Positions 7,747 through 59,740 of a DNA stretch of 64,000 bases are shown here, one piece after another (the first letter of the stretch is position 1; every line of letters begins with the position of its first letter). The notes under the pieces are model-generated. The model was given only the letters and a program-made list of their open reading frames with translations, had not been told where the DNA came from and ran no database searches. Position numbers and translations under genes: made by a program. Origin of the DNA: Aquabacterium humicola. Lineage in GTDB: Bacteria > Pseudomonadota > Gammaproteobacteria > Burkholderiales > Burkholderiaceae_C. Location: positions 496,001-560,000 of the forward strand of contig NZ_JARGNB010000001.1 in the NCBI RefSeq assembly GCF_030167915.1, given 5' to 3'.

Positions 7747-7769
7747 AAGGTGCACGTTGAATGCATCAA
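7747..7769 (-). promoter_or_regulatory. Putative NsrR operator
   Basis: A 23-bp imperfect inverted repeat, AAGGTGCAC-N5-ATGCATCAA, matching the NsrR consensus (AAGATGCAT-N5-ATGCATCTT) in most key bases. It covers the predicted transcription start (about 7761) of the DUF2249-nsrR-nnrS operon, where a bound repressor would block RNA polymerase. Confidence 0.6.
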
Positions 7770-7809
7770 TTCTAGGAATCGCCCTCGCCCGGCGTTTGCG
7801 CCATGTCAA
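7769..7809 (-). promoter_or_regulatory. FNR/DNR-type class II promoter of the NO/ubiUVT operon
   Basis: On the minus strand TTGAC-ATGG-CGCAA (7809-7796) is followed after 21 bp by TAGAAT (7774-7769), a 5/6 match to the -10 consensus. Predicted start near 7761. The same box-21-bp-TAGANT architecture recurs throughout the window. Confidence 0.7.
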
Positions 7810-7837
7810 TGGCGGGGGCCCGGCGCGCCCCTCGGGC

Positions 7838-10800
7838 TCAGGGTCGATCGGCGGCGGGTCTTTCGCCGATTCGCCTGTACACGAAGGGCGGTGGCTTGAT
7901 CGGCGCGGCCTGAGGGGCAGGGTCGGCGGCGAGGATCGAACGCCGGACGGCGTTCGACTTGCGCCGGCCCTCCGGCACGGTCGTGCAGGACCAGTCGACC
8001 CAGTCCCAGAGCGGGCCCATCCGGCAGGTCAGCGTCAGCGAGCCGGTGGTCGGTCCGATCGAATCGACCCAGTTCCTGGTGGTGTCGGGCAGGAACGGCG
8101 GCCCGTAGTCGTCCGCTTCGCAGAAGTTCCCCTCTCCGTCCCCCCACAGGATGTTGCCGCAGGCAGGCTTGGTCGGCGAGCAGAAGGTGTTCGAACCGAC
8201 CGGAACAAGGGTTCCGCTCACGCATTCAGCGTCCAGGAACCCATACGGTGCCGAGTTGATGTCCGTCCACTGGATGCGTGCGCCGGAGGGTGCCCACTTC
8301 TCGTCCCAGCCGTTCCGGGTGTCAGGGAAGCAGGTGGGGCCGCCCGCTGTCCACCCCGACGCGGCGAGCGCGTCCACGTTGCAGGCCCCCGCCTGCAGCG
8401 TGCACGACGGCGTGCCGACCGGCGTCAGCGTGCCGTCGGTGCATTGCAGGGTGATGGTCCCGGTCTCCGGTTCGTAGGTGTCGGTGAAGGTCCGCTGCGT
8501 GCCGGAGGCGATCGTCTGGTCGAAGGTCCACGCGCGGCAGGTGTAGCCGTTGGCCGTCCAACCCGTGGTCGGCAGGTAGGAGATGTCGCAGGCGGCGGGG
8601 CCGCTGGCGTTGCAGGTCGGCGATCCCGTCGTCGACAGCGTGCCGTTGCCGCAGCTCAGCGAGATGGCGCCCGTCGTGGGCTGCTGGCTGTCGGTGAGGT
8701 CGAGCGTCGCGCCATGGGCCACCGAGCCGGGCAGGCTGTCCGGCATGCAGGTGTTCGCGCCGACGGTCCAGCCGTTCGCGGCCAGCGACGCCGTGCTGCA
8801 GCCCTGGGGAGGCGGGCTGCCGGCCGCGCACGACGACTGCCCCACCTGGTTCAGCGCGCCGTCATTGCACTGCAGGCTCACGCCGCCGGTGTTGGGCTCC
8901 TGCGAATCGACGAGGTGCAGCATCTGGCCCGATGCGACGCTGGCTGGAACCGAATCGGGCCTGCAGTTCGCTGTGCCCACGGTCCAGCCGGCGCTCGCGA
9001 CGGCCGCGGTGTCGCAGGCCTTCGCCGCCGAGCTGCTGCAGGACGGATCGCCGACCGTCAGCAGCGTGCCGTTGACGCACTGCGCGTTCATCGTGCCGGT
9101 GGTCGGCCCGGTGGCATCGGCGAGCGCCAGGCTCGCGCCGGAGGCAACGCTGGCTGGTGCTGAATCGGGCTTGCAGGTCTGGCCGCCCACGGTCCAGCCA
9201 TTGGCGACGATGTCCGCCGTTTCGCACGGCACCGCGGCGGTGCTGCAGCTCGGCGGCTCGATGTCGCTGAGCTGCCCCTGGCTGCACTGCGCGGTCAGCA
9301 CGCCCGTGGTCGGCGCCTGGGTGTCCCGCAGGGTCAGCGTGCTGCCGGAAGCCACGATGACCGGCTGGCCGAAGTCGGGAGCGCACGCCGAGCCGCCAAC
9401 CGTCCACGACGTCGGCGCGGTGCAGGCCGTCGCGCACGTGCCCGCCGCGGCCGGTGCCGCGGTGCCGTCGTGGCATGTCCAGGTGATCGAGCCGGTCGTC
9501 GGCATGCTGCTGTCCTGGTGGGTCAGGCGCTCGCCGGAGGCCAGCGTCGTCGCTTGACCGGGATCGGGCGTGCAGCTCGCGTCGCCCGCTTTCCACGACG
9601 TTGGCAGCGTGCAGCTCGCGGCGATCGTGCAGTTCATCGCCGTGGGCGGCTGCAGCGTGCCGTTGCTGCAGGACCACTGCGCCGCGCCGGTCGCATTGCC
9701 GGTGCTGTCGCGGATGATCTCGCTCTCGCCGGAGGCGATCGCAGCCGGCTGGCCGGGATCGGGACTGCAGGTCGCGTTGCCGACCTTCCAGGAGGCCGGA
9801 ACGGCACAGCTGGTCGCCGTCTGCCGGCACACCAGGCTGGAAGGTGGCGCCAGGGTGCCGTCCAGGCATGACCAAGTCACCGAGCCGGTGGTCGCGCCGG
9901 CCGTGTCGACGTGCTTCACGCTCGTGCCCGAGGCGATCTGCGTCGGCTGCCCTCCGTCGGGGCTGCAGGAGGCCGCGCCGTCGGACCAGGCGCTCGGCGC
10001 GGTGCAGCTCGCGGCCGGGCGCCGGACGTTGCAGGCGCGCTGCTTCAACTCCAGCGCCCCCTTGTTGCAGGACCAGTTGGCGAAGCCCTCGGTGCTGCCG
10101 ATCGAGTCCGCGATCACGCGCGTGGTGCCCGACTGAACGACAGCGGGCTGATCCGGGTCCGGCGCGCAGGTTGCGCTGCCGACGCTCCAGGACGCCGGCA
10201 GCGGGCAGTCGAGGGTCGTGACCACCGTTGTTCCCTTGTCGTCGGTGCCGATCACCAGGTTGTCGAGCACCCGGTCGTAGCCGGTGCCGTCGGCGCGGAA
10301 CGGTGTGGTCAGCGGATCGAAGCGGGCCGGGTCGATGCCGGCGCCGCGCAGCAGCGGGCTGATGCCGGGATCGGTGCGCATCGCGGCGAGCGCGCTGTCG
10401 AGTGCCGACGGATTCGAGGCGATGATCGCCGGCGTCAGCCCCGAGGCCCCGGGATAGCCGGCCGCCCGCGCGATGTCCGACGCGATCTTGTCGCTGAGTC
10501 CGGTCACGGCGACGAACGCATAGCGGTTCGGGACCAGCGGCTGCGTGCTCAGCGAGTGGCGCACGACCCCGTCGGGCCGCGCGACGCTGACGACGATCGG
10601 CGCCTCGAAGCCGGGCGTCCTGACGCGAAAGTAGCCGTTGGCCTGCGTCGTGCCGTAAGCCTTCCTGCCGTTCCTGTCGGTCACCGTGACGAGGCCGCCA
10701 GCGATCGGTGCACCATCGCCCGCGGTGCCGTCCGCGCCACCGGCGTCGCCACCGTCGCCGCCGAAGCTGTCCTGCACGCGCGCCTGCGCGCCGCAGGTCG

Positions 10801-12029: not shown

Positions 12030-12071
12030 TTGCGCTGGCGCAATGGACGCCATCCCGACGGCGTTCAGAGT
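12030..12071 (+). promoter_or_regulatory. FNR-type box and -10 for tandem Usp gene
   Basis: TTGCG-CTGG-CGCAA at 12030-12043, then 22 bp to CAGAGT (12066-12071). The ATG at 12079 is 8 nt after this hexamer, so the mRNA would be leaderless. In the opposite direction GGTCAT (12005-12000) could serve the lipoprotein gene, but less convincingly. Confidence 0.6.
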
Positions 12072-12078
12072 TGTCGGC

Positions 12079-12921
12079 ATGACCTACCGAAGCCTGCTGA
12101 CCCTGCTCGACAACGATGCGCGCTGCCCGGTGCGAACGCAACTGGCGATCCAGCTGGCGCATGCGTTCGAGGCCCATCTGGTCGGACTGGCCCCCACCGG
12201 CCGCATCCAGTGGCCGACCAGCGTGCACGGCGCGGCGATGCTCGACGAGTTCGCCGGCATCGCGTGGGCGGCGCTGCACGGCCAGGCGCAGCAGGCGACG
12301 GAGCGCTTCGACGAGGCCTGCCGCGACGCGCACCTGGCTTCGAAGGAGACCGTGGTCGTCGAGGAGGACGAGGCGGTCGCGCTGGTGCGGCATGCGCATT
12401 GCAGCGATCTGGTCCTGCTCGGCCAGCCCGACCCCGATCAGGCGGACTACCTGCTGCGGCGCGACATGGTCGAGGGCGTGGTGCTGCAGAGCGCGCGGCC
12501 GACGCTGATCGTGCCGTATGCCGGCCGATTCGGCGACGTCGGGCAGCGCGTGATGGTGGCCTGGGACGACAGCCGGGAGGCCGCGCGGGCGGTGACCGAT
12601 GCGTTGCCGCTGCTGCGCCGCGCCGCGCAGGTGCAGGTGGTGGCCTGGCAGGAACGGGGGCTGCAGGGCGAGGTGCCGCTGGCCGAGCGCCTGGGCGCGC
12701 TGCGCCAGTGGCTGGCGTGGCATGGGGTGGTCGCCGAGACCGCCGTGGAAACGAGCAGCGTCGCAGTTGCCGAGGCGATGTTGTCGCGGGCGGCTGACCT
12801 CGGGGCGGACCTGCTGGTGATGGGCGCCTACGGCCACATGCGCTGGACCGAGCGCATGCTCGGCGGCGCCACGCGCAGACTGCTGGACGCCATGACGGTG
12901 CCGGTACTGATGTCGCACTGA
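12079..12921 (+). CDS. Tandem universal stress protein
   Basis: 280 residues with two UspA domains. The first (residues 1-150) is degenerate (SDLVLLGQPDPDQ). The second (about 155-280) ends in the classic ATP-binding loop GADLLVMGAYGHMRWTERMLGGATRRLLDAMTVPVLMSH (G-x2-G-x9-G-S/T). Tandem Usps are typically induced by low oxygen, starvation or NO. The ATG at 12079 gives the normal Usp beta-1 strand (YRSLLTLLD); no Shine-Dalgarno is visible, in line with a leaderless start after the FNR-type promoter. The next gene begins 40 bp downstream. Confidence 0.9.
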   Translation: MTYRSLLTLLDNDARCPVRTQLAIQLAHAFEAHLVGLAPTGRIQWPTSVHGAAMLDEFAGIAWAALHGQAQQATERFDEACRDAHLASKETVVVEEDEAVALVRHAHCSDLVLLGQPDPDQADYLLRRDMVEGVVLQSARPTLIVPYAGRFGDVGQRVMVAWDDSREAARAVTDALPLLRRAAQVQVVAWQERGLQGEVPLAERLGALRQWLAWHGVVAETAVETSSVAVAEAMLSRAADLGADLLVMGAYGHMRWTERMLGGATRRLLDAMTVPVLMSH

Positions 12922-15009: not shown

Positions 15010-15051
15010 TTGACAACACGCAAGGGCCGGCGCCGACGCCGGGCCTATAGT
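15010..15051 (+). promoter_or_regulatory. FNR-type class II promoter of the PAS kinase/LuxR-type regulator operon
   Basis: TTGAC-AACA-CGCAA at 15010-15023, 22 bp, then TATAGT (15046-15051). The box centre to predicted start (15058) is 41.5 bp, an ideal class II arrangement. Confidence 0.78.
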
Positions 15052-15085: not shown

Positions 15086-16636
15086 ATGGACGATCCAGAT
15101 TTCCGAGTGCTGTTCGAGGCCTCTCCGGAGCCGACGCTCGCGCTGCGCCCCGATTCCCCGCGCTTCACCATTGCCGCCGTCAGCGACGACTACGCCCGCG
15201 CGACGATGACACGGCGCGACCGGATCCTCGGGCGTGGCCTGTTCGACGTCTTTCCCGACAACCCGGACGATCCGCGGGCCGATGGCGTGCGCAACCTCCG
15301 CGCCTCGCTCGATCGCGTGCTGGCGACCGGCGCGCCCGACGTGATGGCGGTGCAGAAGCACGACGTGCAGCGGCCGCCCGAGCAGGGTGGCGGTTTCGAG
15401 CCGCGCTGGTGGAGCCCGGTCAATTCGCCGGCCTTCGGTGCCGACGGCCGCATCGCCTACCTCCTGCACCGCGTCGAGGACGTCACCGACGTCGTGCGCC
15501 TGACGCAGCGTGGCGCCGAGCAGCCCCGGGTCGCCACGCGCAGCGAGGAATACTGGCACGGGCTGTTCGAGCAGGTCTCCGAGGGCATCGTGATCGTCGA
15601 TCCGGACCACGGCTGCATCGAGGCGAACGAGGCGGCCTGCGCATTGTTGGGCCGCCGCCGCGACCAGCTCGTCGGCAGCGGCTTCGACGCGCTGCTGGCA
15701 CCCGGGCACCACCAGCGCGAGGCCTTCGAGGCCTGCCGGTCCGCGGCCGACCGCGCGGTGCACCGCCATCCGTGGACACTGCTGCGCGGCGACGGCGGCG
15801 TGGTGGCGGTCGACGCTTCGGTCCGCCGGCTGTCCGACGACCGCTGCCTGGTGCTGCTGCACGACGCGACCGAACGCCGGCAGCGCGAGCGGCTCGCGCA
15901 GCAGGCCGCCGACGAGCTCGAGCGCCGCGTCGTCGAGCGCACCGAACAGCTGCGGCGACTGGCCGCGGAGCTGGAGGCGGCCGAGATCGGCGAGCGGCGC
16001 CAGCTCGCGCGCGACCTGCACGACGACCTCGGCCAGACCCTGGCGGCGGCGCGCATCCGGCTCGATGCCCTGTGCCGCGATGCCCAGCCCGAGGTGAGGG
16101 CGGCGGCCGCCGAGATCGCGGCGATCGTGTCGGAGGCGAACCGCGCGACGCGATCGCTCGCCGCGCAGCTGGCGCCCGCGGTGCTGTACGAGCTGGGCCT
16201 CGCGGCCGCCCTGGAATGGCTCGCCGAGGAGGTGGAGGCGCAGTTCGGCCTGGTGGTCACGATCACCGACGACGGTGCGCCCAAGCCGCTGTCGACGGAG
16301 GCGCGCTCGATCGTCTACCGGGCGGTGCGTGAACTGCTGATCAACGTGGCCAAGCATGCCGCGGTGCGCTCGGCCGCCGTGCGTCTCGAGCGCCACGGGG
16401 CCGAACTGCGCGTGCGCGTCGACGATGCCGGCGTCGGCTTCCTGCCGATGCCGGCCGGGTCGGCGCGGCGCGGCCTCGGCCTGGCGAGCGTGCGCGAACG
16501 GCTGGCGTTCATCGGCGGGCGGTTCGAGATCCGCAGCGTTCCGGGCGATGGCACGGAGGCGTTGCTGCACGTGCCCCTGCTGGGCATGGCGCCCGCATGC
16601 GCGCCCATGGCGCACGACCAGGGGAGCACCGCGTGA
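15086..16636 (+). CDS. PAS-PAS NarX/DegS-type sensor histidine kinase
   Basis: 516 residues, no membrane segment, so a cytoplasmic sensor. Two PAS-like regions (about 10-140 and 155-275), a coiled coil (QQAADELERRVVERTEQLRRLAAELEAAE), then HisKA_3 with His312 in ARDLHDDLGQTLAAARIRLD, and an HATPase_c domain (LLINVAKHA, DDAGVGF, GLGLASVRERLAFIGG). The first PAS has the form often annotated in Burkholderiales with a FEASPEPTLALRPDSPRFTI-like start. Partner regulator: the LuxR-type response regulator that overlaps its stop by 4 bp. Preceded by GGGAGGAGG, about 15 nt from the ATG. Confidence 0.9.
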   Translation: MDDPDFRVLFEASPEPTLALRPDSPRFTIAAVSDDYARATMTRRDRILGRGLFDVFPDNPDDPRADGVRNLRASLDRVLATGAPDVMAVQKHDVQRPPEQGGGFEPRWWSPVNSPAFGADGRIAYLLHRVEDVTDVVRLTQRGAEQPRVATRSEEYWHGLFEQVSEGIVIVDPDHGCIEANEAACALLGRRRDQLVGSGFDALLAPGHHQREAFEACRSAADRAVHRHPWTLLRGDGGVVAVDASVRRLSDDRCLVLLHDATERRQRERLAQQAADELERRVVERTEQLRRLAAELEAAEIGERRQLARDLHDDLGQTLAAARIRLDALCRDAQPEVRAAAAEIAAIVSEANRATRSLAAQLAPAVLYELGLAAALEWLAEEVEAQFGLVVTITDDGAPKPLSTEARSIVYRAVRELLINVAKHAAVRSAAVRLERHGAELRVRVDDAGVGFLPMPAGSARRGLGLASVRERLAFIGGRFEIRSVPGDGTEALLHVPLLGMAPACAPMAHDQGSTA

Positions 16637-17280
16637 GCGAAACGACAGTGATGCTGGTGGAGGACCACCGGCTGGTGCGCGAGGCGCTGCGCGACACGCT
16701 GGCCCGCGAGGCCGACATCCGCGTCGTCGCCGAGGCGGGCGACGCGGCGACGGCGCTGGCGCTGGCGCGCGAGTGGGTGCCCGACGTGATCGTGCTGGAC
16801 ATCGGGCTGCCGGACGTCAACGGCATCGAGACCGCGGCGCGGCTGCGCGACGCGCGCCTGTCGACGCGCATCATCGCGTTGTCCGCCTACAGCGACAAGC
16901 GCTTCGTCACCGAGATGCTGCGGGCCGGCGCGGCCGCCTATGTCACGAAATCCGCGGCCGGCACGGACCTGGTGGCCGCGATCCGCGCCGTCGCGGCCGG
17001 GCACGGCTACTTCAGCCCCGAGGTGTCCGCCGCGCTGGTCGACGAGGTTCGCGACACCGCGGCCGGCGACCTGCGCGCGCCACAGCGGCTGGGCCGGCGC
17101 GAGCGCGAGGTGCTGCGCATGGTCGCCGAGGGTCGCCGGTCGGCCGAGATCGCCGAGCAGATGCACATCTCGGTCGCGACGGTGGAGGTGCACCGCCGCA
17201 ACATCATGCGCAAGCTGGACCTGCACACCGTCGCCGAGCTGACGCGATACGCGATCCGCGAGGGCATGAGCTCGCTCTGA
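16633..17280 (+). CDS. NarL/FixJ-family response regulator
   Basis: 215 residues. Receiver domain with Asp56 in VIVLDIGLPDVNG, LSAYSDKRF and lysine in VTKSAAG. LuxR-type HTH at the C-terminus: LGRREREVLRMVAEGRRSAEIAEQMHISVATVEVHRRNIMRKL. The GTG start (16633) overlaps the kinase stop (GTGA), a classic coupled pair. Target genes unknown; the TAC-N10-GTA inverted repeats at 35124 and 58691 have the spacing of NarL-family sites and are candidates (inference). Confidence 0.93.
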   Translation: MSETTVMLVEDHRLVREALRDTLAREADIRVVAEAGDAATALALAREWVPDVIVLDIGLPDVNGIETAARLRDARLSTRIIALSAYSDKRFVTEMLRAGAAAYVTKSAAGTDLVAAIRAVAAGHGYFSPEVSAALVDEVRDTAAGDLRAPQRLGRREREVLRMVAEGRRSAEIAEQMHISVATVEVHRRNIMRKLDLHTVAELTRYAIREGMSSL

Positions 17281-17309
17281 CGGGCGGCCGGCTCGCGCGC
17301 GGAAGGAAC

Positions 17310-18737
17310 ATGCGCGAACCCGGCGACCGGACTCCGCCGTTCGACCCGCTGGCCGCCGGCGTCGCACTCGCCGAGGTGGCGTGGGCGCCGCTGGCGGGCG
17401 CGCCGGCGCTGCGGCTGCTGCAGGCGCGCCGGCTCGCCCGGCTGCTGCGCGCGGCGCAGCACGCCTCGCCGCTGTACCGAACGCTGCTGCGGGGTCTCGA
17501 TCCCGATCGCGACGACGTGCTGCAGCTGCTGCCGACGCTGCCGGTGCTGCGCAAGGCCACGCTGATGGCGCAGTTCGAGGGCTGGGTGGGCGATCCGGCG
17601 CTGCGCCTGGCCGACCTGCGCCGCTTCACCGCCGACCCCGCACGCATCGGGGACGCGTACCTGGGACGCTATCTGGTCTGGGAGAGCTCGGGCAGCCGAG
17701 GCGAGCCCGGCATCTTCGTGCAGGACGCGGCCGCGCTGGCCGTCTACGACGCGCTCGAGGCCCTGCGCCGGCCGTGGTCGCCGGGGCGCCTGCTCGACCC
17801 GTGGTACGCCGGCGAGGTGATCGCGCTCGTCGGCGCGACCGGCGGGCACTTCGCCAGCGTCGTCTCGACGACGCGGCTGCGCCGCCTCAACCCGGCGATG
17901 TCGCAGCGCCTGCACGAGGTGTCCTTCCTGCAGCCGCCCGAGGCGCTGGCGGCCCGGTTGAACGCGCTGCAGCCGACCCTCATCGGCAGCTACCCGACGG
18001 CGGCGATGGTGCTGGCCGAGCTGGCCGAGGCCGGCCGGCTGACGGTGCATCCGCGCGAGATCCGCACCGGCGGCGAGACGCTGACCGCGCCGATGCGGCA
18101 GCGGCTGCAGCGGGTCTTCGGCTGCCCGGTGATCGACAGCTACGGCGCCAGCGAGTTCTTCACCATCGCCTGCGAGTGCCCGCAGGGCCGCCTGCACCTG
18201 AACAGCGACTGGGTGATCCTGGAGCCGGTCGATGCGCACGGCCGGCCGGTGCCGGCGGGCACCAGCGGCGCCAGCGTGCTGCTGACCAACCTGGCCAACA
18301 CCGTGCAGCCGCTGATCCGCTACGACCTGGGCGATCGCGTGCGCTTGCCGGTGGAACGCTGCGCCTGCGGCTCGCCACTGCCGCTGCTGGAGGTGGCCGG
18401 TCGCAGCGACGACCTGTTGCACCTGCCGGCGGCACGCGGCGCCGGGCTCGTCGCGATCGCGCCGCTGGCGCTGTGCACGGTGCTGGAGGACGACGCCGGG
18501 CTGTTCGACTTCCGGCTGGAACAGCTGGCGCCGGCCGAGCTGCTGCTGTCGGTGCCCGGCCACGGCGCTGCCGCGACGGCGGCGCTCGAACGCGGGCAAC
18601 GGGCCCTGGCCGCGTACTTCGACCGTCAGGGCATCGCTCGCGTGCGGCTGCAGCGGCGCAGCGGCCGGCCGGGTTCACGCGGGCGCGGGGGCAAGCTGCA
18701 GCGCGTGGTCGCGCTGGCGGCGGACCCGCCGGCCTGA
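17310..18737 (+). CDS. PaaK/CapK-like adenylate-forming enzyme
   Basis: 475 residues. It resembles phenylacetate-CoA ligase/coenzyme F390 synthetase proteins: an N-terminal helical part (LARLLRAAQHASPLYRTLLRGLD), the P-loop-like WESSGSRGEPGIFVQD, IGSYPTAAMVLAELAEAG, IRTGGETLTAPMRQRLQRVFGCPVIDSYGASEFF and LANTVQPLIRYDLGDRV. The short C-terminal domain (GRPGSRGRGGKLQRVV) retains a terminal lysine. The substrate acid cannot be predicted. ATG 17310 has a GGAAGGAA ribosome-binding site and lies 30 bp after the response regulator, so it may be the third gene of that operon. Confidence 0.78.
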   Translation: MREPGDRTPPFDPLAAGVALAEVAWAPLAGAPALRLLQARRLARLLRAAQHASPLYRTLLRGLDPDRDDVLQLLPTLPVLRKATLMAQFEGWVGDPALRLADLRRFTADPARIGDAYLGRYLVWESSGSRGEPGIFVQDAAALAVYDALEALRRPWSPGRLLDPWYAGEVIALVGATGGHFASVVSTTRLRRLNPAMSQRLHEVSFLQPPEALAARLNALQPTLIGSYPTAAMVLAELAEAGRLTVHPREIRTGGETLTAPMRQRLQRVFGCPVIDSYGASEFFTIACECPQGRLHLNSDWVILEPVDAHGRPVPAGTSGASVLLTNLANTVQPLIRYDLGDRVRLPVERCACGSPLPLLEVAGRSDDLLHLPAARGAGLVAIAPLALCTVLEDDAGLFDFRLEQLAPAELLLSVPGHGAAATAALERGQRALAAYFDRQGIARVRLQRRSGRPGSRGRGGKLQRVVALAADPPA

Positions 18738-19693: not shown

Positions 19694-20179
19694 TCAGCGC
19701 ACGATCAGCACCGGCATCGTGGCCGTCGCCACGACGCCGTCGGCGTCGCCGCCGAGCGGCAGCGGCGTCAGGCCGCGGCGCCCGTGCGAGCCCAGCACGA
19801 CCAGGCCGCACTCGCGCGCGGCGGCCTCGTCGAGGATGGTGCGGGCAATGTTCACGCGGCCCGCCTTGCGCTGCACCCGCTCGGCCTTCGCGCCGGCGCC
19901 GGCGGCGGCGTCCGCCGCGCGCTGCAGCAGCACCTGCCCGAAGTCGGCCAGCGCCCGATGGCGTTCGCCCTCGTCGTGCAGGTCCACGGCGCCCGGCAAC
20001 CAGGGCGCCGGGTCCTCGACGACATGCAGCAGCACCAGCTCGGAGCGCAGCGCCACCGCGAGGCCGATCGCTTCGCGCAGCGCACGTTCGCTGGCGGGGC
20101 TGCCGTCGAGCGCTGCCAGGATGGCGCGTCCCTTCGTGTCAGGCGCTGTCCTGCGCGGCCGGCGACGCCGTCTCGGCAT
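19694..20179 (-). CDS. Universal stress protein
   Basis: One UspA domain: ILAALDGSPASERALREAIGLA, LLHVVEDP and the ATP loop GLVVLGSHGRRGLTPLPLGGDADGVVATATMPVLIVR. The start is uncertain. The only in-frame ATG is at 20179, which overlaps the previous usp gene by 41 bp and adds a basic stretch foreign to Usps. The conserved fold begins at an ATC codon (ATC CTG GCA GCG) preceded by AAGGGA at good ribosome-binding distance, so a non-standard start around 20128 is possible. Co-transcribed with the upstream Usp. Confidence 0.8.
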   Translation of the reverse strand: MPRRRRRPRRTAPDTKGRAILAALDGSPASERALREAIGLAVALRSELVLLHVVEDPAPWLPGAVDLHDEGERHRALADFGQVLLQRAADAAAGAGAKAERVQRKAGRVNIARTILDEAAARECGLVVLGSHGRRGLTPLPLGGDADGVVATATMPVLIVR

Positions 20180-20615
20180 CGCGCACCAGCAGCACCGGTA
20201 CCGGCGCGTGGCGCAGCACCAGTTCGGCATCGCTGCCCATCGTCAGGCGGCGCAGGCCGCGGCGGCCGTGCGTGCCCATCACGATCAGGTCGCAGCGGCG
20301 CGTGCGCGCCTCTTCGACCACCACGTCGGCCACCGGCGTCGTCCGGGCGTCGCGCAGCACGCATTCGGCGTCGACCCCGGCGGCCGCTGCCGCCGCCTCG
20401 GCCTGGGTCAGCGTCGCGCGGGCCGCCTCGAGCACGCCGGCGTGCGGCACGTCGACGGCCTGCGCCGAGCCCATCGCCATCAGCAGCGGGAAGTCGTTGA
20501 CGACATGCAGCAGCACCAGCGACGCCTTCAGCTGCCGGGCCAGCGCGATCGCTTCGCGCAGGCCGCGTTCGCTGCAGGGGCTGCCGTCGGTCGGTACCAG
20601 GATGCGGGTGTACAT
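20139..20615 (-). CDS. Universal stress protein
   Basis: 158 residues from ATG 20615 (MYTRILVPTDGSPCSERGLREA). A single UspA domain with LVLLHVVNDFP and the nucleotide-binding loop CDLIVMGTHGRRGLRRLTMGSDAELVLRHAPVPVLLVR (G-x2-G-x9-G-S). Single-domain ATP-binding Usp, first gene of a Usp pair; the two are about half-identical by eye and likely arose by duplication. A weak FNR-type box (20712-20725) lies upstream. Confidence 0.9.
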   Translation of the reverse strand: MYTRILVPTDGSPCSERGLREAIALARQLKASLVLLHVVNDFPLLMAMGSAQAVDVPHAGVLEAARATLTQAEAAAAAAGVDAECVLRDARTTPVADVVVEEARTRRCDLIVMGTHGRRGLRRLTMGSDAELVLRHAPVPVLLVRDAETASPAAQDSA

Positions 20616-20683: not shown

Positions 20684-20725
20684 ATGTTGGCGCCGGGGCG
20701 CCTGCCGCGCATTGAGATGGCGCAG
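20684..20725 (-). promoter_or_regulatory. Weak FNR-type promoter for the Usp pair
   Basis: Minus strand CTGCG-CCAT-CTCAA (20725-20712), 22 bp, CAACAT (20689-20684). Two mismatches to the half-site consensus; kept because the spacing fits and usp genes follow. Confidence 0.4.
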
Positions 20726-20780: not shown

Positions 20781-20821
20781 TTGCGGCCGATCAAGGCGGG
20801 CCGCTGCCGGCGACGGATAGT
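20781..20821 (+). promoter_or_regulatory. FNR-type class II promoter of the HhH protein gene
   Basis: TTGCG-GCCG-ATCAA at 20781-20794, 21 bp, GATAGT (20816-20821). Confidence 0.7.
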
Positions 20822-22385: not shown

Positions 22386-22427
22386 ATTCTTGGTTGGTCC
22401 CGCACCGGCGCGATTGCGTTTGCGCAA
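22386..22427 (-). promoter_or_regulatory. FNR-type promoter for micro-ORF/response regulator
   Basis: Perfect half-sites TTGCG/CGCAA at 22414-22427 (minus spacer CAAA), 22 bp, AAGAAT (22391-22386) on the minus strand. Confidence 0.65.
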
Positions 22428-22586: not shown

Positions 22587-22600
22587 TTGCGCAAGCTCAA
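22587..22600. promoter_or_regulatory. Orphan FNR-type box
   Basis: TTGCG-CAAG-CTCAA in the 400-bp gap between the divergent genes at 22317 and 22721. No convincing -10 hexamer at 21-22 bp in either direction. The rest of the gap (about 22430-22585) shows no gene I would defend. Confidence 0.35.
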
Positions 22601-22644: not shown

Positions 22645-22685
22645 TTGCGAACGCGCAATCGGCCTCTCGTCATGGTGGCTGTAAT
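22645..22685 (+). promoter_or_regulatory. FNR-type class II promoter of the PEP-CTERM tandem gene
   Basis: TTGCG-AACG-CGCAA at 22645-22658, 21 bp, TGTAAT (22680-22685, 5/6 match). Confidence 0.72.
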
Positions 22686-27070: not shown

Positions 27071-27084
27071 TTGCGCCCGATCAG
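27071..27084 (-). promoter_or_regulatory. Possible FNR-type box upstream of patatin gene
   Basis: TTGCG-CCCG-ATCAG (one mismatch in the second half-site). No good -10 at 21-22 bp on the minus strand, so its role is uncertain. Confidence 0.35.
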
Positions 27085-27109: not shown

Positions 27110-27150
27110 TTGCGCAATCGCAATGCGCGTGGTCGCGCGCTGCCTAGCAT
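27110..27150 (+). promoter_or_regulatory. FNR-type class II promoter
   Basis: TTGCG-CAAT-CGCAA at 27110-27123, 21 bp, TAGCAT (27145-27150). Faces the degenerate PRTase gene at 27204. Confidence 0.75.
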
Positions 27151-28454: not shown

Positions 28455-28496
28455 ATGGTGGCCGCGTCGCCCGCCGTCGGGCTTGCGAACGCTCAA
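28455..28496 (-). promoter_or_regulatory. FNR-type promoter for micro-ORF/CPKC gene
   Basis: Plus strand TTGCG-AACG-CTCAA (28483-28496); on the minus strand 22 bp then CACCAT (28460-28455). One mismatch in one half-site. Confidence 0.5.
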
Positions 28497-28575: not shown

Positions 28576-28616
28576 TTGCGCTGGCGCAACCCGGCCGCAC
28601 GGCCGCTCCCTATCGT
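28576..28616 (+). promoter_or_regulatory. FNR-type class II promoter
   Basis: TTGCG-CTGG-CGCAA at 28576-28589, 21 bp, TATCGT (28611-28616). Faces the membrane TPR protein at 28651. Confidence 0.75.
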
Positions 28617-31927: not shown

Positions 31928-31972
31928 CGGCAGGGCGTTCACGGCGGGGTTTGCGTCAATGCGATGCCGGCG

Positions 31973-32014
31973 ATCATCGAGCCGCAGCGGCTGGTGCCCA
32001 TTGCGTTCGCGCAA
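31973..32014 (-). promoter_or_regulatory. FNR-type promoter of lipoprotein-glgP
   Basis: TTGCG/CGCAA half-sites at 32001-32014 (plus spacer TTCG). Minus strand: 22 bp, GATGAT (31978-31973). Confidence 0.68.
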
Positions 32015-32107: not shown

Positions 32108-32149
32108 TTGCGGTTGCGCAATCCCCGCCTGGCCGGCCCGGTCGAGGAT
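32108..32149 (+). promoter_or_regulatory. FNR-type promoter, divergent from lipoprotein-glgP
   Basis: TTGCG-GTTG-CGCAA at 32108-32121, 22 bp, GAGGAT (32144-32149, weak). Faces the micro-ORF at 32184 and the two genes after it. Confidence 0.6.
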
Positions 32150-33436: not shown

Positions 33437-35041
33437 TCACTGCGCCTGCCCGCGCGCGAACTCGCGCAGCGCCTCCAGCCGCGGGATCGCGATCTCCTTG
33501 CGGCACGGCCCGCTGAACCGCACCAGTTGCTCGCGCTCGAGCCTCGTCATCGCGCGGCTGACGGACTCCAGCCGCAGGCCGACGTGGCTGCCGATCTCGG
33601 CGCGCGAGACATGCAGCGTCAGCTGGTCGTTGCGCAGCCCGCAGTCGTGCAGGCCATCGGCCCAGCGGCAGAGGAAGTCGGCCACCTTCGCGTCGGCGTT
33701 GAGCGCATGCTGTGCCAGCGACCCCTCGCGCTCGCGCGCGGCCTGACGCGCCATCGCGACATGCAGCCACTCCAGCAGCTGCGGATGGCGCGTGCCGGCG
33801 CGCAGCAGCGACTCATAGCTCATCGTCCACAGCTCGCCGGTGTCCACCGCCTGCGCGGTGCATGCGTGGCGGCCGTCGATCAGGCCGTCGAAGCCCAGCC
33901 AGTCGCCCTTGAACAGCAGGGCGCTGAGCTCCTCGCGTCCCTCCGGGCTGACGCTGACCAGCTTGCACATGCCCGCGTTGACCAGGTGCACGCCGCGCAG
34001 GCGCTCGCCGGCCCGGTAGATCGTGTCGCCCGCACGCAGCACGCGGCGCACCACCGGCACGTGTTCGAGCAGCAGCGCCGCCGGCCCGCTCGCCGACGCC
34101 AGGGCCACCGGGCTGGCATCGCCCGCGTCCGGCGGCACGGCGGCCTCGCCGCCGACGGCGCCGCCACCCGCCTGCTTGACCCGGTACATCGCCTGGTCGG
34201 CATGGCGCAGCAGCGCCGAGGCATCGCGGCCGTCCCGTGGGTACGCGCCGACGCCGATGCTCAGCGAGACATCCAGCGGCGCCGCGCCTTCGATGGCCAC
34301 CGGCTCGGCGCACACGCGTGCGATCGAGTCCAGCACGCGGGTCGGATCCTCGGTGTCCGGCAGCAGCAGCGCGAACTCGTCGCCGCCGAGCCGCGCTGCG
34401 GTGTCCGACTCGCGCAGGCACTGGCGCAGCCGCTGCGCGACCGCGCGCAGCACCGCGTCCCCGGCCTCGTGCCCGAAGCGGTCGTTGACCTGCTTGAAGC
34501 GGTCGATGTCGATCATCGCGATCGCGAAGGGCTCGCCGCTGCGTGCGCCGCGATGAAGCGCCTGTTCCAGCCGGTCGAGGTACAGACTGCGGTTCGGCAG
34601 CCCGGTCAGTGCATCGTGCGAGGCCTCGTGCGACAGGCGCTCGAAGGCCTGCACGCGTGCGCTGACGTCGTGCCCGCACGACAGGTAGTGGCTCACCGCG
34701 CCCGAGCCGTCGCGCAGCGGCCGGATCGTCTTCTCCTCGTGGTACAGCGTGCCGTCCTGGCGCCGGTTGACCAGCACGCCATGGAACTCGTGGCCGCTGC
34801 GCAGGGTGTCCCACAGCTCGCCGTAGAAGTCGCGCCCGAGCAGGCCCGACTTCAGGATGGAAGGTGTGCGGCCCAGCGCGGCGGCGCGTTCATAGCCCGT
34901 CAGTGCCTCGAAGGCCTTGTTCACGTAGACGATCTGGCCGCGCACATCGGTGGCCAGCGCCGCCTCGTCGCTCTCGTCCAGCATCCAGGCAGCCAGTTGC
35001 AGGGCGCTCGGTGCTTCGGGCTTCTCCATCGCCAGCGTCAT
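33437..35041 (-). CDS. PAS-GGDEF-cNMP-binding-HTH regulator (CRP/FNR family)
   Basis: 534 residues from ATG 35041. Domains: PAS (about 20-130, ALATDVRGQIVYVNKAFEALTGY, PLRDGSGAVSHYLSCGHDVS), diguanylate cyclase (135-300) with intact GGDEF at 219-223 and inhibitory I-site R210-E-S-D213 five residues before it, a cyclic-nucleotide-binding fold (about 340-450, VLRAGDTIYRAGERLRGVHLVNAGMCKLV) and a CRP-type winged HTH (VSRAEIGSHVGLRLESVSRAMTRLERE). The recognition helix holds E-x-x-S-R, the residues with which FNR reads TTGAT. No FNR-type N-terminal Fe-S cysteines, so the signal must differ (PAS ligand, c-di-GMP). It is the only CRP/FNR protein in the window and the best local candidate for the recurrent boxes. 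An earlier ATG at 35086 lies upstream of the likely -10. Confidence 0.88.
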   Translation of the reverse strand: MTLAMEKPEAPSALQLAAWMLDESDEAALATDVRGQIVYVNKAFEALTGYERAAALGRTPSILKSGLLGRDFYGELWDTLRSGHEFHGVLVNRRQDGTLYHEEKTIRPLRDGSGAVSHYLSCGHDVSARVQAFERLSHEASHDALTGLPNRSLYLDRLEQALHRGARSGEPFAIAMIDIDRFKQVNDRFGHEAGDAVLRAVAQRLRQCLRESDTAARLGGDEFALLLPDTEDPTRVLDSIARVCAEPVAIEGAAPLDVSLSIGVGAYPRDGRDASALLRHADQAMYRVKQAGGGAVGGEAAVPPDAGDASPVALASASGPAALLLEHVPVVRRVLRAGDTIYRAGERLRGVHLVNAGMCKLVSVSPEGREELSALLFKGDWLGFDGLIDGRHACTAQAVDTGELWTMSYESLLRAGTRHPQLLEWLHVAMARQAAREREGSLAQHALNADAKVADFLCRWADGLHDCGLRNDQLTLHVSRAEIGSHVGLRLESVSRAMTRLEREQLVRFSGPCRKEIAIPRLEALREFARGQAQ

Positions 35042-35071: not shown

Positions 35072-35166
35072 AATGTAGGCAGGCATGGGGCGTGACGGAA
35101 TTCCGTCGCCTGCGAGACGGCACTACCGGAACGCCGGTATTCGCTCGAAAGGTTGACAACGATCAA
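35072..35166 (-). promoter_or_regulatory. Promoter of the PAS-GGDEF-CRP regulator with three palindromes
   Basis: On the minus strand: FNR-type TTGAT-CGTT-GTCAA (35166-35153), TACCGG-N4-CCGGTA (35139-35124), a perfect 14-bp palindrome GACGGAATTCCGTC (35107-35094) and -10 TACATT (35077-35072). Relative to a start near 35065 the centres lie at about -94, -66 and -35. Confidence 0.6.
35124..35139. promoter_or_regulatory. NarL-like inverted repeat
   Basis: TACCGG-AACG-CCGGTA. TAC-N10-GTA is the outer spacing of NarL 7-2-7 sites. Centre 57 bp from the centre of the -10, identical to the copy at 58691. Confidence 0.55.
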
Positions 35167-36226: not shown

Positions 36227-36267
36227 AGTGTTCCCCTGTGGCGGCAGGCCGGCTTGCGCCGGCGCAA
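36227..36267 (-). promoter_or_regulatory. FNR-type promoter of the prs paralogue
   Basis: Perfect palindrome with TTGCG-CCGG-CGCAA (36254-36267), 21 bp, AACACT (36232-36227) on the minus strand. Confidence 0.62.
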
Positions 36268-36291: not shown

Positions 36292-36332
36292 TTGCGTTCG
36301 CGCAGTCGCTGCGCCGGCCCGCTGCCTAGAGT
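36292..36332 (+). promoter_or_regulatory. FNR-type class II promoter
   Basis: TTGCG-TTCG-CGCAG at 36292-36305, 21 bp, TAGAGT (36327-36332). The ATG at 36340 follows 8 nt after the hexamer (leaderless). Confidence 0.75.
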
Positions 36333-36840: not shown

Positions 36841-36881
36841 TTGCGATACCTCAATCGCCCGCCGGTGCGGGGTCCTAGAGT
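36841..36881 (+). promoter_or_regulatory. FNR-type class II promoter of hibernation factor gene
   Basis: TTGCG-ATAC-CTCAA at 36841-36854, 21 bp, TAGAGT (36876-36881), inside the same CCTAGAGTGC context as the promoter at 36292. Confidence 0.73.
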
Positions 36882-36921: not shown

Positions 36922-37308
36922 ATGAAACAACCTCTGCAGATCGTGTTCATCGGCATGGCGGCCTCCGCCGCAGTGGAGGCCTCGGTGCGCGAGAAGGCGT
37001 CGCGCCTCGACCGCTTCCGGCCCGACCTGATGTCGTGCCGCGTCAGCATCGAACTGGTGGACCGTCACAAGCACCAGGGCCGGCTGTTCGCCGTGCGCAT
37101 CGACGCTACGATGCCGGGCGCCGAGCTGGTGGTCGACCGCGTGCAGCACGAGGATGTCTACGTGGCCCTGCACGACGCGTTCGACGACATGAAGCGGCAG
37201 GTGCAGGACGGCGCCCGTCGCCTGCAGGGCCAGGTCAAGACGCACGCCGACCGCGACGGCGCGGGCGGCCAGCCGTCGTGGCCGGGGGGCGACCGGTCCG
37301 ACGCCTGA
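36922..37308 (+). CDS. Ribosome hibernation factor (HPF/RaiA family)
   Basis: 128 residues. HPF/YfiA fold: LQIVFIGMAASAAVEASVREKASRLDRFRPDLMSCRVSIELVDRHKHQGRLFAVRIDATMPGAELVVDRVQHEDVYVALHDAFDDMKRQVQD. The pattern beta-alpha-beta-beta-beta-alpha with a final D-A-F-D-x-M-x-R-Q-x-x-D helix is diagnostic. Binds the 30S decoding centre and silences idle ribosomes. The short tail after 105 is Gly/Asp-rich and lacks the C-terminal dimerisation domain of long HPF. Convergent overlap of 74 bp with the acyltransferase gene. Under an FNR-type promoter, analogous to the hibernation factor of the DosR regulon. Confidence 0.88.
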   Translation: MKQPLQIVFIGMAASAAVEASVREKASRLDRFRPDLMSCRVSIELVDRHKHQGRLFAVRIDATMPGAELVVDRVQHEDVYVALHDAFDDMKRQVQDGARRLQGQVKTHADRDGAGGQPSWPGGDRSDA

Positions 37309-38666: not shown

Positions 38667-38735
38667 ATGCTAGGAAGCACCGCCCCGCGGCGATTGCGCG
38701 CGATCAAGCGTGCGTCACCGACGGCGGCGCATCAT
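38667..38735. promoter_or_regulatory. Divergent FNR-type promoter between WS/DGAT and usp
   Basis: One box, TTGCG-CGCG-ATCAA (38694-38707). Leftward: 21 bp, TAGCAT (38672-38667). Rightward: 22 bp, CATCAT (38730-38735). A single site could drive both genes. Confidence 0.7.
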
Positions 38736-43027: not shown

Positions 43028-43068
43028 AGCCTACGTGGCCGTCGTGGTCCTCGATTGCGCCTGATCAA
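43028..43068 (-). promoter_or_regulatory. FNR-type class II promoter of the binding-protein/kinase operon
   Basis: Plus strand TTGCG-CCTG-ATCAA (43055-43068); minus strand 21 bp, TAGGCT (43033-43028). ATG 43020 follows at 8 nt. Confidence 0.72.
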
Positions 43069-43089: not shown

Positions 43090-43130
43090 TTGATCGCCCG
43101 CAAGCGACGCTTGAACCGGATGCCTAGACT
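43090..43130 (+). promoter_or_regulatory. FNR-type class II promoter of the CHASE3/PAS kinase
   Basis: TTGAT-CGCC-CGCAA at 43090-43103, 21 bp, TAGACT (43125-43130). Only 21 bp separate it from the divergent box at 43055. Confidence 0.78.
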
Positions 43131-46061: not shown

Positions 46062-46102
46062 TTGAGGCGCATCAACGCGACATCGCCGACAGCCCGGATA
46101 GT
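46062..46102 (+). promoter_or_regulatory. FNR-type class II promoter of ACP-GNAT gene
   Basis: TTGAG-GCGC-ATCAA at 46062-46075, 21 bp, GATAGT (46097-46102). Confidence 0.68.
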
Positions 46103-46162: not shown

Positions 46163-46994
46163 GACCGCCCCCGATGCGCAGCAGATCCGCCGCGCCGTGC
46201 TGGCGGCCATCGACGCAGTAGTGCCGGGCGCCGACGTGCAGCGAATCCGGCCCGCTCAGCCGCTGCGCGCCCAGCTCGAGCTCGACTCGCTGGACTGGTT
46301 GAACGTCGTCGAGATACTGGGCGAACGCCTGTCGGTCCCGATTCCGGCTTCCGACCACGGACAGCTGGACACCCTCGATGCGCTGGTGGACTACCTCGGC
46401 CGCCGGCTGACCGACCGGCGGGCGCCGCCGCCGTCCGGCGAGGCCCCCGACGAACGGGGCGTGAGCCGGCACGTGCTGCGGGACACGCCGGTCACCATCC
46501 GGCCGCTTTGCGCCGACGACAAGGCCCTGGAGGCGTCCTTCGTCCGCCGACTCTCCGCCGAGGCCCGCTACAACCGGTTCATGGTCACGATGAAGGAGCT
46601 GCCGGAAAAGAAGCTGGACTGGTTGACGTCGGTGGACCAGGCGCGACACGTGGCCCTGGTGGCGACCGTCGAGTCCCCCGCCGGCTGCCTCGAGGTGGGC
46701 GTCGTGCACTACTTCGTCGATGCACCCGGTACCGGCTGCGAGTTCGCGGTCGCCGTCGACGACGCCTGGCAGGGCAGCGGTCTGGCCGGCATCCTGATGC
46801 AGCGGCTGATCGACATCGCGCGGGCGCGCGGCCTGGCGACGATGGAGGGTCTGGTGCTGGTCACCAACCGCCGCATGCGCAAGCTGGCACGCCAGCTGGG
46901 GTTCGTGGAGCGATCGGACGCCGAGGACCGCAGGACGGTTCGCATCGTGCGTTCGTTGCGCGAGCCCGCAGGGCTCGGGCCCGGTCGCGCCTGA
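46152..46994 (+). CDS. Acyl carrier protein-GNAT acetyltransferase fusion
   Basis: 280 residues. Residues 1-85: an ACP-like domain, [21 protein letters not shown], with phosphopantetheine site [24 protein letters not shown]. Residues about 105-270: a GNAT domain, [72 protein letters not shown] and [13 protein letters not shown], with the acetyl-CoA loop W-Q-G-S-G-L-A. It might acylate a protein or metabolite with an ACP-bound or CoA-bound group. A related ACP is encoded at 52.2 kb. No ribosome-binding site visible; see the overlapping micro-ORF. Confidence 0.85.
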
Positions 46995-49472: not shown

Positions 49473-49513
49473 ATTCTGTCGAGCGCTGCGCGCCGACGAT
49501 TGATCGATGTCAG
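49473..49513 (-). promoter_or_regulatory. FNR-type promoter of ppsA
   Basis: Plus strand TTGAT-CGAT-GTCAG (49500-49513); minus strand 21 bp, CAGAAT (49478-49473). Confidence 0.58.
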
Positions 49514-49614: not shown

Positions 49615-49655
49615 TTGATCTGCCGCAAGCGCGCGGACAGGTCGCTTCCTAGACT
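49615..49655 (+). promoter_or_regulatory. FNR-type class II promoter of CBS-ftsH operon
   Basis: TTGAT-CTGC-CGCAA at 49615-49628, 21 bp, TAGACT (49650-49655). Confidence 0.77.
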
Positions 49656-49831: not shown

Positions 49832-50270
49832 ATGTACCTGTCTGATTTGTGCACCCGCGCGGTGGTCACCTGCGGGCGCCAGGCGAGCGCGCTGGAACTG
49901 GCGCGCGTGATGCGCGACCGGCACGTCGGCGACGTGGTGATCGTCGAGGACGTCGAGGGCGGCGTGCGCCCGGTGGGCGTGGTCACCGACCGCGACCTCG
50001 CGGTGCGCGTGATGGCGTGCGGCATCGCGCCCGAGCACGCAGTTGCCGAGGACCTGATGCACGAGGACGTGCACACCGCGATCGGCTCCGAGACCGCCTA
50101 CGACGCGATCTGGCACATGCGCAGCCACGGCATACGCCGCTTGCCGGTCGTCGACGCGCACGGCCGCCTGGTCGGCATCGTGACCGCCGACGACGTGGCC
50201 GACCTGCTCGCGCAGGAGCTCTCCGCGCTGGCGCGCATAGCGGGCCGCCAGGCAAGCCGCGAGCAGGTTC

Positions 50271-50287
<17 letters not shown>
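49832..50287 (+). CDS. CBS-domain pair protein
   Basis: 151 residues consisting of two CBS motifs: [57 protein letters not shown] and [45 protein letters not shown] pairs bind adenine nucleotides and sense energy state. The stand-alone form is like mycobacterial Hrp1 (Rv2626c), a dormancy protein. GGAGG before the ATG. The 3' end overlaps the ftsH paralogue by 17 bp. Confidence 0.92.

Positions 50288-52142
<1,855 letters not shown>

Positions 52143-55671: not shown

Positions 55672-55675
<4 letters not shown>
54701..55675 (-). CDS. pdhA: Pyruvate/2-oxoacid dehydrogenase E1 alpha
   Basis: 324 residues. E1-alpha signatures: [94 protein letters not shown], the ThDP motif [39 protein letters not shown] and [23 protein letters not shown]. 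The serine/tyrosine phosphorylation loop is the short bacterial form. Coupled by 4-bp overlaps to the synthetase upstream and E1-beta downstream. Confidence 0.94.
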
Positions 55676-58035
<2,360 letters not shown>

Positions 58036-58067: not shown

Positions 58068-58109
58068 ATCGTCACGCGAGCTGCGAGGGGAGGCGTTGCG
58101 CGAGCGCAA
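58068..58109 (-). promoter_or_regulatory. FNR-type promoter of PRTase-Acs-pdh operon
   Basis: TTGCG-CGAG-CGCAA (58096-58109); minus strand 22 bp, GACGAT (58073-58068). Confidence 0.62.
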
Positions 58110-58631: not shown

Positions 58632-58638
58632 GACGCCG

Positions 58639-58752: not shown

Positions 58753-59184
58753 TCAGGTGCGCAGGCGCTGAGCGAGTTCGTCGTCCGCCAGCGTGGTGTA
58801 GTCGGCCGCCACCGTGCGCAGGACCGACTTCAACGCTTGTGCTCCGAGATGGGCCTTCAGTTCGCCCAGGAACGGGTTCGACGCCACCAGCACCAGTCCG
58901 GCACAGCGCCCCGCCGCAACGCCGTCGTCCAGCACCGCGGCGACCTCCCGCGCGAAACGCTCGTGCTCGCGTTCTCGCACGTCGGTGCGTGGGATGTATT
59001 GGGCGCTACCCAGGCCATGGCCCGCACCGGAGACGCGACCCGCGCGGTCGTCGCCGAGCTCCACGCCTTTCTGCCGGCTCTGCGGGTGCACCAGATCGGC
59101 AACGTGCACGTACGGTTCCGCCCCGTCGGCGGCTTCGAGCACCCGGGCCCGCGCGGCATTGGCCACCACCAGCCAGTTCTTCAT
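58753..59184 (-). CDS. Host-attachment-like protein (AtsE/Hcp type)
   Basis: 143 residues. The family pattern is clear: NWLVVANAARARVLEAADGAEPYVHVADLVHPQSRQKGVELGDDRAGR, HERFAREVAAVLDDGVAAGRCAGLVLVASNPFLGELKAHLGAQALKSVLRTVAADYTTLADDELAQRL. It has the fold of eRF1/Pelota domain 2 and is named from Agrobacterium plant attachment, but in most bacteria it is a soluble protein of unknown role. Lies 30 bp after hsp20, so co-expressed from the 59727 box. Confidence 0.85.
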   Translation of the reverse strand: MKNWLVVANAARARVLEAADGAEPYVHVADLVHPQSRQKGVELGDDRAGRVSGAGHGLGSAQYIPRTDVREREHERFAREVAAVLDDGVAAGRCAGLVLVASNPFLGELKAHLGAQALKSVLRTVAADYTTLADDELAQRLRT

Positions 59185-59214
59185 GGATCGACTCCTTCCC
59201 GGGTGGGCGACAAC

Positions 59215-59637
59215 TCACTGGATGGGGATGGTCCGCGCACCGGCACCTTCGCGCTTGGGCAGCGTGAGCTTGAGCACGCCGTCCTCGAGCTTGGCGACGA
59301 TGCCTTTCTGGTCGATCTCGCTGGCCAGCGAGAAGCCGCGCGACACGCTGCCCTGGTAGGTCTCCTTGACCAGCGTGCGGCCGGTCTTCTGCTCCTTCTC
59401 TTCCTTCTCGCGCCGGACCTCGGCGGCGATCGAGACGAAGTTGCCGTCGACGGTGACGCGGATGTCCTCCTTCTTGGCGCCGGGGATCTCGGCGCGCACC
59501 TGGTAGTCCTTGTCGTTCTCGGTGACATCGATCTTGATCTCGCCGGGCATGTCGGGCATGGCCAGCGGCCGCGACATGCGGCGGAAGAGCTCGGGGAAGA
59601 ACTCGTCGAAACGCTCGAGGCGGGTCAATGCGCTCAT
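59215..59637 (-). CDS. Hsp20-family small heat-shock protein
   Basis: 140 residues. Alpha-crystallin domain: IKIDVTENDKDYQVRAEIPGAKKEDIRVTVDGNFVSIAAEVRREKEEKEQ, SRGFSLASEIDQKGIVAKLEDGVLKLTLPKRE, and a C-terminal I-P-I motif (ARTIPIQ) that mediates oligomer assembly. N-terminus with FDEFFPELFRRM. ATP-independent holdase. Equivalent in role to mycobacterial HspX/Acr, the most strongly induced dormancy protein. FNR-type promoter upstream. Confidence 0.94.
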   Translation of the reverse strand: MSALTRLERFDEFFPELFRRMSRPLAMPDMPGEIKIDVTENDKDYQVRAEIPGAKKEDIRVTVDGNFVSIAAEVRREKEEKEQKTGRTLVKETYQGSVSRGFSLASEIDQKGIVAKLEDGVLKLTLPKREGAGARTIPIQ

Positions 59638-59699
59638 GATGAAACTCCTGGCTTGCGATGTGATCGTTCCCGGCACGACCGCGTGCACGGGTGCCAAAA

Positions 59700-59740
59700 A
59701 GTCTAGGCACTGCATCTCGGGGCCGTTTGCGCAAACGCAA
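59700..59740 (-). promoter_or_regulatory. FNR-type class II promoter of hsp20
   Basis: TTGCG-CAAA-CGCAA (plus strand 59727-59740); minus strand 21 bp, TAGACT (59705-59700). One of the cleanest examples. Last box of the series. Confidence 0.8.

Follow-up and report, generated by a model that had tools for sequence, protein, structure and literature searches.

Gene content of the region

The 64,000-nucleotide stretch of the Aquabacterium humicola genome analysed here, referred to as the window (C1:496001-560000; 72% G+C, in a genome of 7.39 Mb and 44 contigs), contains between 7.4 and 59.7 kb an island of genes whose upstream regions carry 14-bp TTG-N8-CAA palindromes (boxes), the type of site found in FNR/CRP class II promoters. 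In that interval 27 of 28 transcription units have a box, a unit being defined as same-strand neighbours without an intervening box and counted by hand on the called genes plus the HPF gene described below. Genes were called with a custom codon-usage script, whose 62 calls include a few doubtful short ones; it overlooked one gene or more, including 36922-37308. Of the 63 window genes, 56 were searched with Pfam, the other seven being short, doubtful or outside the island, and 20 with NCBIfam.

The island encodes four universal stress proteins (Usp), an HSP20, an HPF/YfiA-like factor, a CBS protein, FtsH, a wax ester synthase/diacylglycerol acyltransferase (WS/DGAT) and a phosphoenolpyruvate (PEP) synthase, together with an alpha-glucan phosphorylase, a fatty acyl-CoA ligase, a gene resembling phosphoribosyl-pyrophosphate synthase, several PAS kinases, a NarL-type regulator, an operon for an acetyl-CoA ligase-like protein, E1, E2 and acyl carrier protein (ACP), and NnrS with an NsrR-like Rrf2 gene. 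Judged from these predicted functions, the set looks like a programme for survival at low energy. The product of 36922..37308 (plus strand) is an HPF/YfiA-like ribosome hibernation factor, with Ribosomal_S30AE above the Pfam cut-off and NCBIfam yfiA below its own; the gene overlaps the end of the opposite-strand WS/DGAT gene. A small RNA considered downstream of the box at 36841 was dropped once this gene was found there, and at the Rfam gathering threshold a single tRNA is the sole match in the window. The acetyl-CoA ligase-like protein (55672-58035) carries an N-terminal phosphoribosyltransferase domain. At the left edge, NnrS, the NsrR/RirA-like Rrf2 protein and a DUF2249 protein (5736-7728) lie behind one box, a possible link to nitric oxide (NO).

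Boxes were assigned to genes by a simple rule: in a divergent region the left-most box belongs to the left gene and the right-most to the right gene, and a lone box between divergent genes counts for both. The boxes, the hexamers at the -10 position and the genes that they face are as follows.

7796..7809, minus strand: box; -10 TAGAAT, from 7774 down; DUF2249, Rrf2 (NsrR-like) and NnrS genes, 7728-5736
12030..12043, shared divergent box: to the right CAGAGT, Usp 12043-12921 and fatty acyl-CoA ligase; to the left CAGGGT, 1362-aa protein 11926-7838
15010..15023, plus strand: box; -10 TATAGT at 22 bp; PAS kinase, NarL-type regulator and AMP-ligase-like genes, 15107-18737
20712..20725, minus strand: weaker box with CAG end; -10 CAACAT; Usp 20139-20615 and Usp 19694-20056
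20781..20794, plus strand: box; -10 GATAGT; HHH protein 20865-21809
22414..22427, minus strand: box; -10 AAGAAT; receiver protein 21837-22226
22587..22600, no strand assigned: third box, flanked by those at 22414 and 22645; lacks both a gene of its own and a -10 at the spacing
22645..22658, plus strand: box; TGTAAT at 21 bp, which is not NANNNT; PKD-domain protein 22721-25828
27071..27084, minus strand: weaker box with CAG end; -10 CAGGAT; patatin-like protein 26027-26992
27110..27123, plus strand: box; -10 TAGCAT; gene 27204-27629
28483..28496, minus strand: box; -10 CACCAT; hydrolase 27799-28317
28576..28589, plus strand: box; -10 TATCGT; gene 28678-29514
32001..32014, minus strand: box; -10 GATGAT; gene 31307-31942 and alpha-glucan phosphorylase 29552-31252
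32108..32121, plus strand: box; -10 GAGGAT; gene 32278-32739 and alpha/beta hydrolase 32785-33417
35153..35166, minus strand: box upstream of the fusion gene 33437-35041; no -10 at 21/22 bp
36254..36267, minus strand: box; -10 AACACT; ribose-phosphate diphosphokinase-like gene 35235-36197
36292..36305, plus strand: box with CAG end; -10 TAGAGT; gene 36340-36642
36841..36854, plus strand: box; -10 TAGAGT (36876); HPF-like gene 36922-37308
38694..38707, shared box: to the left TAGCAT, WS/DGAT 37235-38626; to the right CATCAT, Usp 38764-39576
43055..43068, minus strand: box; -10 TAGGCT; NMT1-like, histidine kinase and REC-HisKA genes, 42900-39591
43090..43103, plus strand: box; -10 TAGACT; CHASE3-PAS histidine kinase 43166-45358
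46062..46075, plus strand: box; -10 GATAGT; PP-binding and GNAT protein 46152-46994
49500..49513, minus strand: box, CAG end as read on the plus strand; -10 CAGAAT; PEP synthase 47016-49424
49615..49628, plus strand: box; -10 TAGACT; CBS protein 49832-50287 and FtsH 50271-52142
58096..58109, minus strand: box; -10 GACGAT; acetyl-CoA ligase-like, E1a, E1b, E2 and ACP genes, 58035-52208
59727..59740, minus strand: box; -10 TAGACT; HSP20 59215-59637 and Host_attach/baeRF 58753-59184

Spacing and density of the boxes

Facing their genes, 25 of the 27 promoters have a NANNNT hexamer 21/22 bp downstream of the box, 11 of them in the strict form TANNNT and 14 further as NANNNT; boxes 22587, the overlapping 22420, 353 and 5326 were omitted from this count. 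The hexamer occurs in none of the 23 directions that face away from genes, and at other offset pairs it was met in a mean of 0.59 of the 27, with a maximum of 2. A -10 matrix, trained on 24 of 26 genome matches outside the window, scored P<0.05 at 21/22 bp in some orientation for 22 of 28 boxes; with 24 control offset pairs, on average 0.8 and at most 4 of the 56 oriented tests passed. Throughout the genome, a box followed by N21/22 and TANNNT gave 36 matches, 10 of them in the window, and none for the reversed control. In class II promoters the FNR or CRP site is centred near -41.5, that is, about 22 bp before the -10 element, and this is the distance found in the same 25 promoters. The fnr1 promoter of Herbaspirillum seropedicae, with a site centred at -42, is likewise held to be of class II (PMC5934665).

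The window contains 26 TTGN8CAA sequences, 24 of them outside called genes. One of the other two, at 32001, falls within a spurious 24-aa gene call, and the one at 36917, absent from the list of that prediction, overlaps the start of the HPF gene. Boxes 20712, 27071, 36292 and 49500 end in CAG and are not counted among the 26; two further TTGN8CAA, at 353 and 5326, lie outside the island. All 26 box strings listed originally are present where they were placed, nearly all of them between genes, the 13 hexamers named as -10 elements were all recovered at 21-22 bp, and beyond 59740 there is no TTGN8CAA, in keeping with the lack of boxes noted for 60-64 kb. The 7.8 kb of intergenic DNA in the window holds 25 TTGN8CAA. 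A further 2.0 Mb of the genome was sampled for comparison: its 154.5 kb of intergenic DNA holds 65 and its 1.84 Mb of coding DNA 51. When the intergenic sequence of the window was Markov-shuffled 200 times, a mean of 0.8 and a maximum of 5 were obtained. The pattern TTGMKN4MKCAA occurs at 87 sites genome-wide versus 57 for the reversed-pattern control, and the window, 0.87% of the genome, holds 19 of the 87 (hypergeometric P ~3e-21). A chance origin of the boxes is rejected by the shuffles, by the reversed patterns (57 and 0 matches) and by their direction toward genes, and in the 2.0 Mb and with the two whole-genome patterns the same density and spacing were not found elsewhere. Outside the window, TANNNT was found at 21/22 bp in 12 of 40 oriented sites and in 2 across 35 other offsets; because the same -10 spacing is present there, some of the 65 intergenic boxes are likely to be real sites.

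Two other features of the boxes were considered. Tandem activator sites were mostly rejected, box pairs corresponding to one box per divergent gene, with 22587 staying as an extra. Hybrid boxes in this genome point toward the -10 element as TTGAYN4CGCAA 15 times versus 3 times as TTGCGN4RTCAA (two-sided P 0.008). A fixed direction was dropped as a rule, since the relatives are unclear: looser hybrid classes in the regions of 13 relatives gave 21 versus 17, and any match of the two orientations occurred in 152 versus 120 of 299 family genomes.

A probable regulon island for low-oxygen survival

The interval from 7.4 to 59.7 kb is very probably a regulon island for low-oxygen survival under FNR/DNR-type class II activation. 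At almost every unit the palindrome ends 21-22 bp before a NANNNT -10 element, at best TAGACT, and an FNR/DNR-type activator dimer would sit over the -35 position and recruit sigma-70 polymerase; we infer activation, not repression. The class II regulon proposed in the original prediction is thus backed by density, spacing and orientation. Low oxygen is suggested as the signal because of the box type and of the known low-oxygen lxa locus described below.

Similar stretches were sought in relatives by reading five regions in which relatives of the fusion protein are encoded, and nine regions preselected for box and hybrid promoter matches; one of the latter (G562) was omitted from the counts, as the gene caller returned no genes. 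In the second group, intergenic boxes with NANNNT at 21/22 bp in either direction numbered 17 of 18 (G070), 11 of 11 (G641), 14 of 17 (G677), 7 of 8 (G633), 4 of 4 (G061), 5 of 7 (G638), 4 of 6 (G599) and 11 of 15 (G587), figures that are partly selected, the regions having been chosen for such promoters, and are not an independent test. These eight stretches represent six genera, and the gene families near their boxes include Usp, HSP20, CBS, PEP synthase, ligases and PAS kinases. Around the fusion relatives, boxes with TANNNT at 21/22 bp occur, one or more per region, in G028, G091, G075 and G096, and the region of G030 has no intergenic boxes. Pooled, 13 of these 14 regions contain 107 intergenic boxes; 57 have TANNNT at 21/22 bp, and every other offset averages 0.4.

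Besides the selection of those regions, several points weigh against a regulon island. The box-to-gene rule was set down only after the pattern had been seen. The sole unit without a box is a 69-aa gene (45575-45784). The TAGANT-like hexamer originally claimed has the strict form TANNNT at 11 of 27 promoters; 14 of the 25 NANNNT hexamers lack the leading T and are weak -10 elements, and neither the box at 22645 nor the one in front of the fusion gene (35153) has a -10 at the spacing. Among 100 family genomes box plus TANNNT is often no more frequent than the reversed control (G005, 1 vs 9; G018, 23 vs 35), and of four other genomes of the genus three, G011 (6 vs 7), G614 (6 vs 6) and G683 (7 vs 7), have no excess over the reversed pattern. 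The fourth, G532, has 10 vs 12. In this last genome 8 of the 10 matches fall at 19-192 kb of contig C2 (C2:19132-191864, 173 kb of one contig), and an FNR-like half is encoded in the same region (C2:27082). The island is thus patchy in its occurrence and may be gained or lost as a unit.

The resident fusion protein and other candidate regulators

One gene of the island encodes a candidate regulator of unusual composition.

33437..35041, minus strand: PAS-GGDEF-cNMP-fold-HTH_Crp fusion protein, 534 aa; recognition helix ESVSR, FNR-type

The four domains (PAS 20-126, GGDEF 140-293, cNMP-fold 333-415, HTH_Crp 452-527) lie in one open frame. The LGGDEF motif is intact and is preceded, five residues before, by an RxxD site (RESD), so that with GG[DE]EF and RxxD both present the protein is a predicted diguanylate cyclase. 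Ahead of its FNR-like half the N-terminal cysteine cluster of iron-sulphur FNR is absent, and Cys 394 corresponds in the alignment to the single inner cysteine. The PDB entries nearest to the PAS domain are 3ewk and 2gj3 (NifL PAS1), which bind FAD; the tryptophan of the NifL motif 'kpWsG' is a phenylalanine in the fusion.

Full-length relatives of the fusion are scarce. The searches scored the best first-look candidates of each genome (14 in the family, 3 in the order and the class, up to 86 in 17 chosen genomes), and relatives may have been missed, as only top candidates were scored. On this basis a full-length relative was found in a single genome of the 99 others of the family, G028; it is 57% identical over residues 13-529 and has RQTD at the RxxD site. 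Among 399 genomes of the order (E<=1e-85) the fusion found only itself, a match in G381 being to the PAS-GGDEF part, and among 369 genomes of the class again only itself; in the 17 chosen genomes the full fusion was present only in G028. A 444-aa protein of G654 (L258) has PAS, GGDEF and cNMP-fold without the HTH, and in a scan of the genome's contigs the best 80 of a larger number of matches all extend mainly over the PAS-GGDEF half. In a literature search of titles and abstract openings, no fusion of a diguanylate cyclase with an FNR-like protein was found described.

It is a tentative possibility that the fusion couples redox sensing, cyclic di-GMP synthesis and transcription in a single molecule. 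The NifL-like PAS would control the GGDEF domain, whose product, or the state of PAS-GGDEF, would gate the FNR-like domain. If this were true, one polypeptide would set both the low-oxygen dormancy regulon and the cyclic di-GMP level, replacing the iron-sulphur switch of FNR.

An E--SR helix marks FNR-type regulators, and an arginine before the glutamate is the arrangement of CRP. The genome encodes an FNR with Cys 8, 11, 17 and 99 (C23:455039), a stand-alone FNR-like paralog in which the N-terminal cysteines are missing (C23:392119-392916) and two proteins (C23:468144 and C23:485385) that we take to be DNR-like. The E--SR helix is common to these four and to the fusion, with the FNR-like proteins carrying ESVSR or ETVSR; two more CRP-family proteins (C12:233036 and C34:323769) have E--SR with the preceding arginine. 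The helices of FNR, the stand-alone paralog and the fusion are so alike that the boxes cannot be assigned by sequence to one of the three. Most likely, genomic FNR/ANR and the Cys-less FNR-like paralogs, including the resident fusion, would share the sites. An FNR-type gene lies within or adjoining several of the relatives' box-rich stretches: that of G070 has a Cys-bearing FNR, and those of G677, G633 and G587 encode stand-alone proteins that share 45-50% identity with the C-terminal half of the fusion.

A second box-rich region of the genome (C23:392119-410249) lies by the gene of the stand-alone FNR-like protein, with five box plus TANNNT matches at 393-410 kb. The NarL-type regulator of the island (16633-17280) is a further candidate; a protein 76% identical to it is encoded in the box-rich stretch of G677, a member of another genus.

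Alternative regulators and comparison with known systems

The fusion might be the main activator, with FNR proper having no role; it was put forward originally, along with the genomic FNR/DNR proteins, as a protein to test for binding. In agreement with that view, its gene lies within the island, the box-rich stretches of G677, G633 and G587 encode FNR-like proteins related to its C-terminal half, and boxes of the same kind surround the full-length fusion of G028. This exclusive role is nevertheless unlikely and should not be assumed, since the genome also has the Cys-cluster FNR and the stand-alone paralog with nearly identical helices, and a full-length fusion is absent among the best candidates of the other genomes searched, including G677 and G633.

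Somewhat less probable still is a nitric-oxide regulon, in which the TTGCG boxes would be bound by an NO sensor of the NnrR/DNR type and not by an oxygen-driven regulator. The two E--SR proteins encoded at about 468 and 485 kb of C23, which we take to be DNR-like, would fit such a sensor, and at its left end the island carries nnrS together with an Rrf2 gene that comes close to NsrR/RirA but scores below their cut-offs. The NnrR consensus is ctTTGcgnnnncgCAAag (PMC1274295), NnrR-dependent promoters of Bradyrhizobium diazoefficiens carry TTGCGN4CGCAA (PMC6710368), and the same palindrome occurs in the island, so that TTGCG, presented originally as a non-standard variant half-site, cannot be regarded as new and its novelty was rejected. 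Many boxes fit the NnrR core; the TTGAY hybrids, found among many of the boxes, do not. Moreover, of the 63 window genes 56 were scanned, and apart from nnrS they include no denitrification genes, specifically no nir, nor or nos; the named genes are mostly of survival, signalling and carbon storage, and the description of NnrR in PMC1274295 concerns alpha-proteobacteria.

That the boxes are repeated DNA of structural or mobile use and not promoters is hardly credible: the palindromes are dense in short intergenic stretches, but they keep a fixed distance and direction to -10 elements and gene starts, their spacers and flanks vary by eye, and none lies inside copies of the 20 largest direct-repeat families (of at least 60), where boxes as parts of longer repeats were likewise not seen.

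In content the island resembles the Burkholderia lxa locus and the mycobacterial DosR regulon. The DosR regulon includes a wax ester/diacylglycerol acyltransferase and a NarL-type response regulator, and its control is by a response regulator, whereas the sites of the island are FNR-type class II boxes. DosR shares with the island Usp and alpha-crystallin genes, and the comparison of DosR with lxa is made in PMC6127331. In Burkholderia cenocepacia the large lxa locus, which has a part in persistence without oxygen, combines several Usp genes with an alpha-crystallin HSP20, and an Anr/FixK-type regulator has been suggested for its oxygen response (PMC6127331, PMC9104464). The island is likewise one locus with four Usp, one HSP20 and similar kinds of genes, a likeness judged by gene kinds only; it differs in that the phosphofructokinase of lxa (PMC6127331) has no counterpart by Pfam in the 56 of 63 window genes, and in having a resident diguanylate cyclase-FNR fusion. 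In H. seropedicae, Fnr1 and Fnr3 respond to oxygen, have Usp targets and use mixed half-sites; their named targets are electron-transport and stress genes (PMC5934665), whereas the island packs its sites among survival genes and TTGCG half-sites are frequent.

Box type, promoter class and kind of locus are known already. What is new is one box per unit packed across 52 kb, the fused regulator and the occurrence of comparable stretches in further genera. An unannotated stretch of 52 kb becomes a testable regulon with 25 predicted promoters, each placed within a base or two, and the rule of box plus spacing leads to candidate islands in other genera. The result also points to a DNA-binding protein of FNR-like type that is joined to a predicted diguanylate cyclase.

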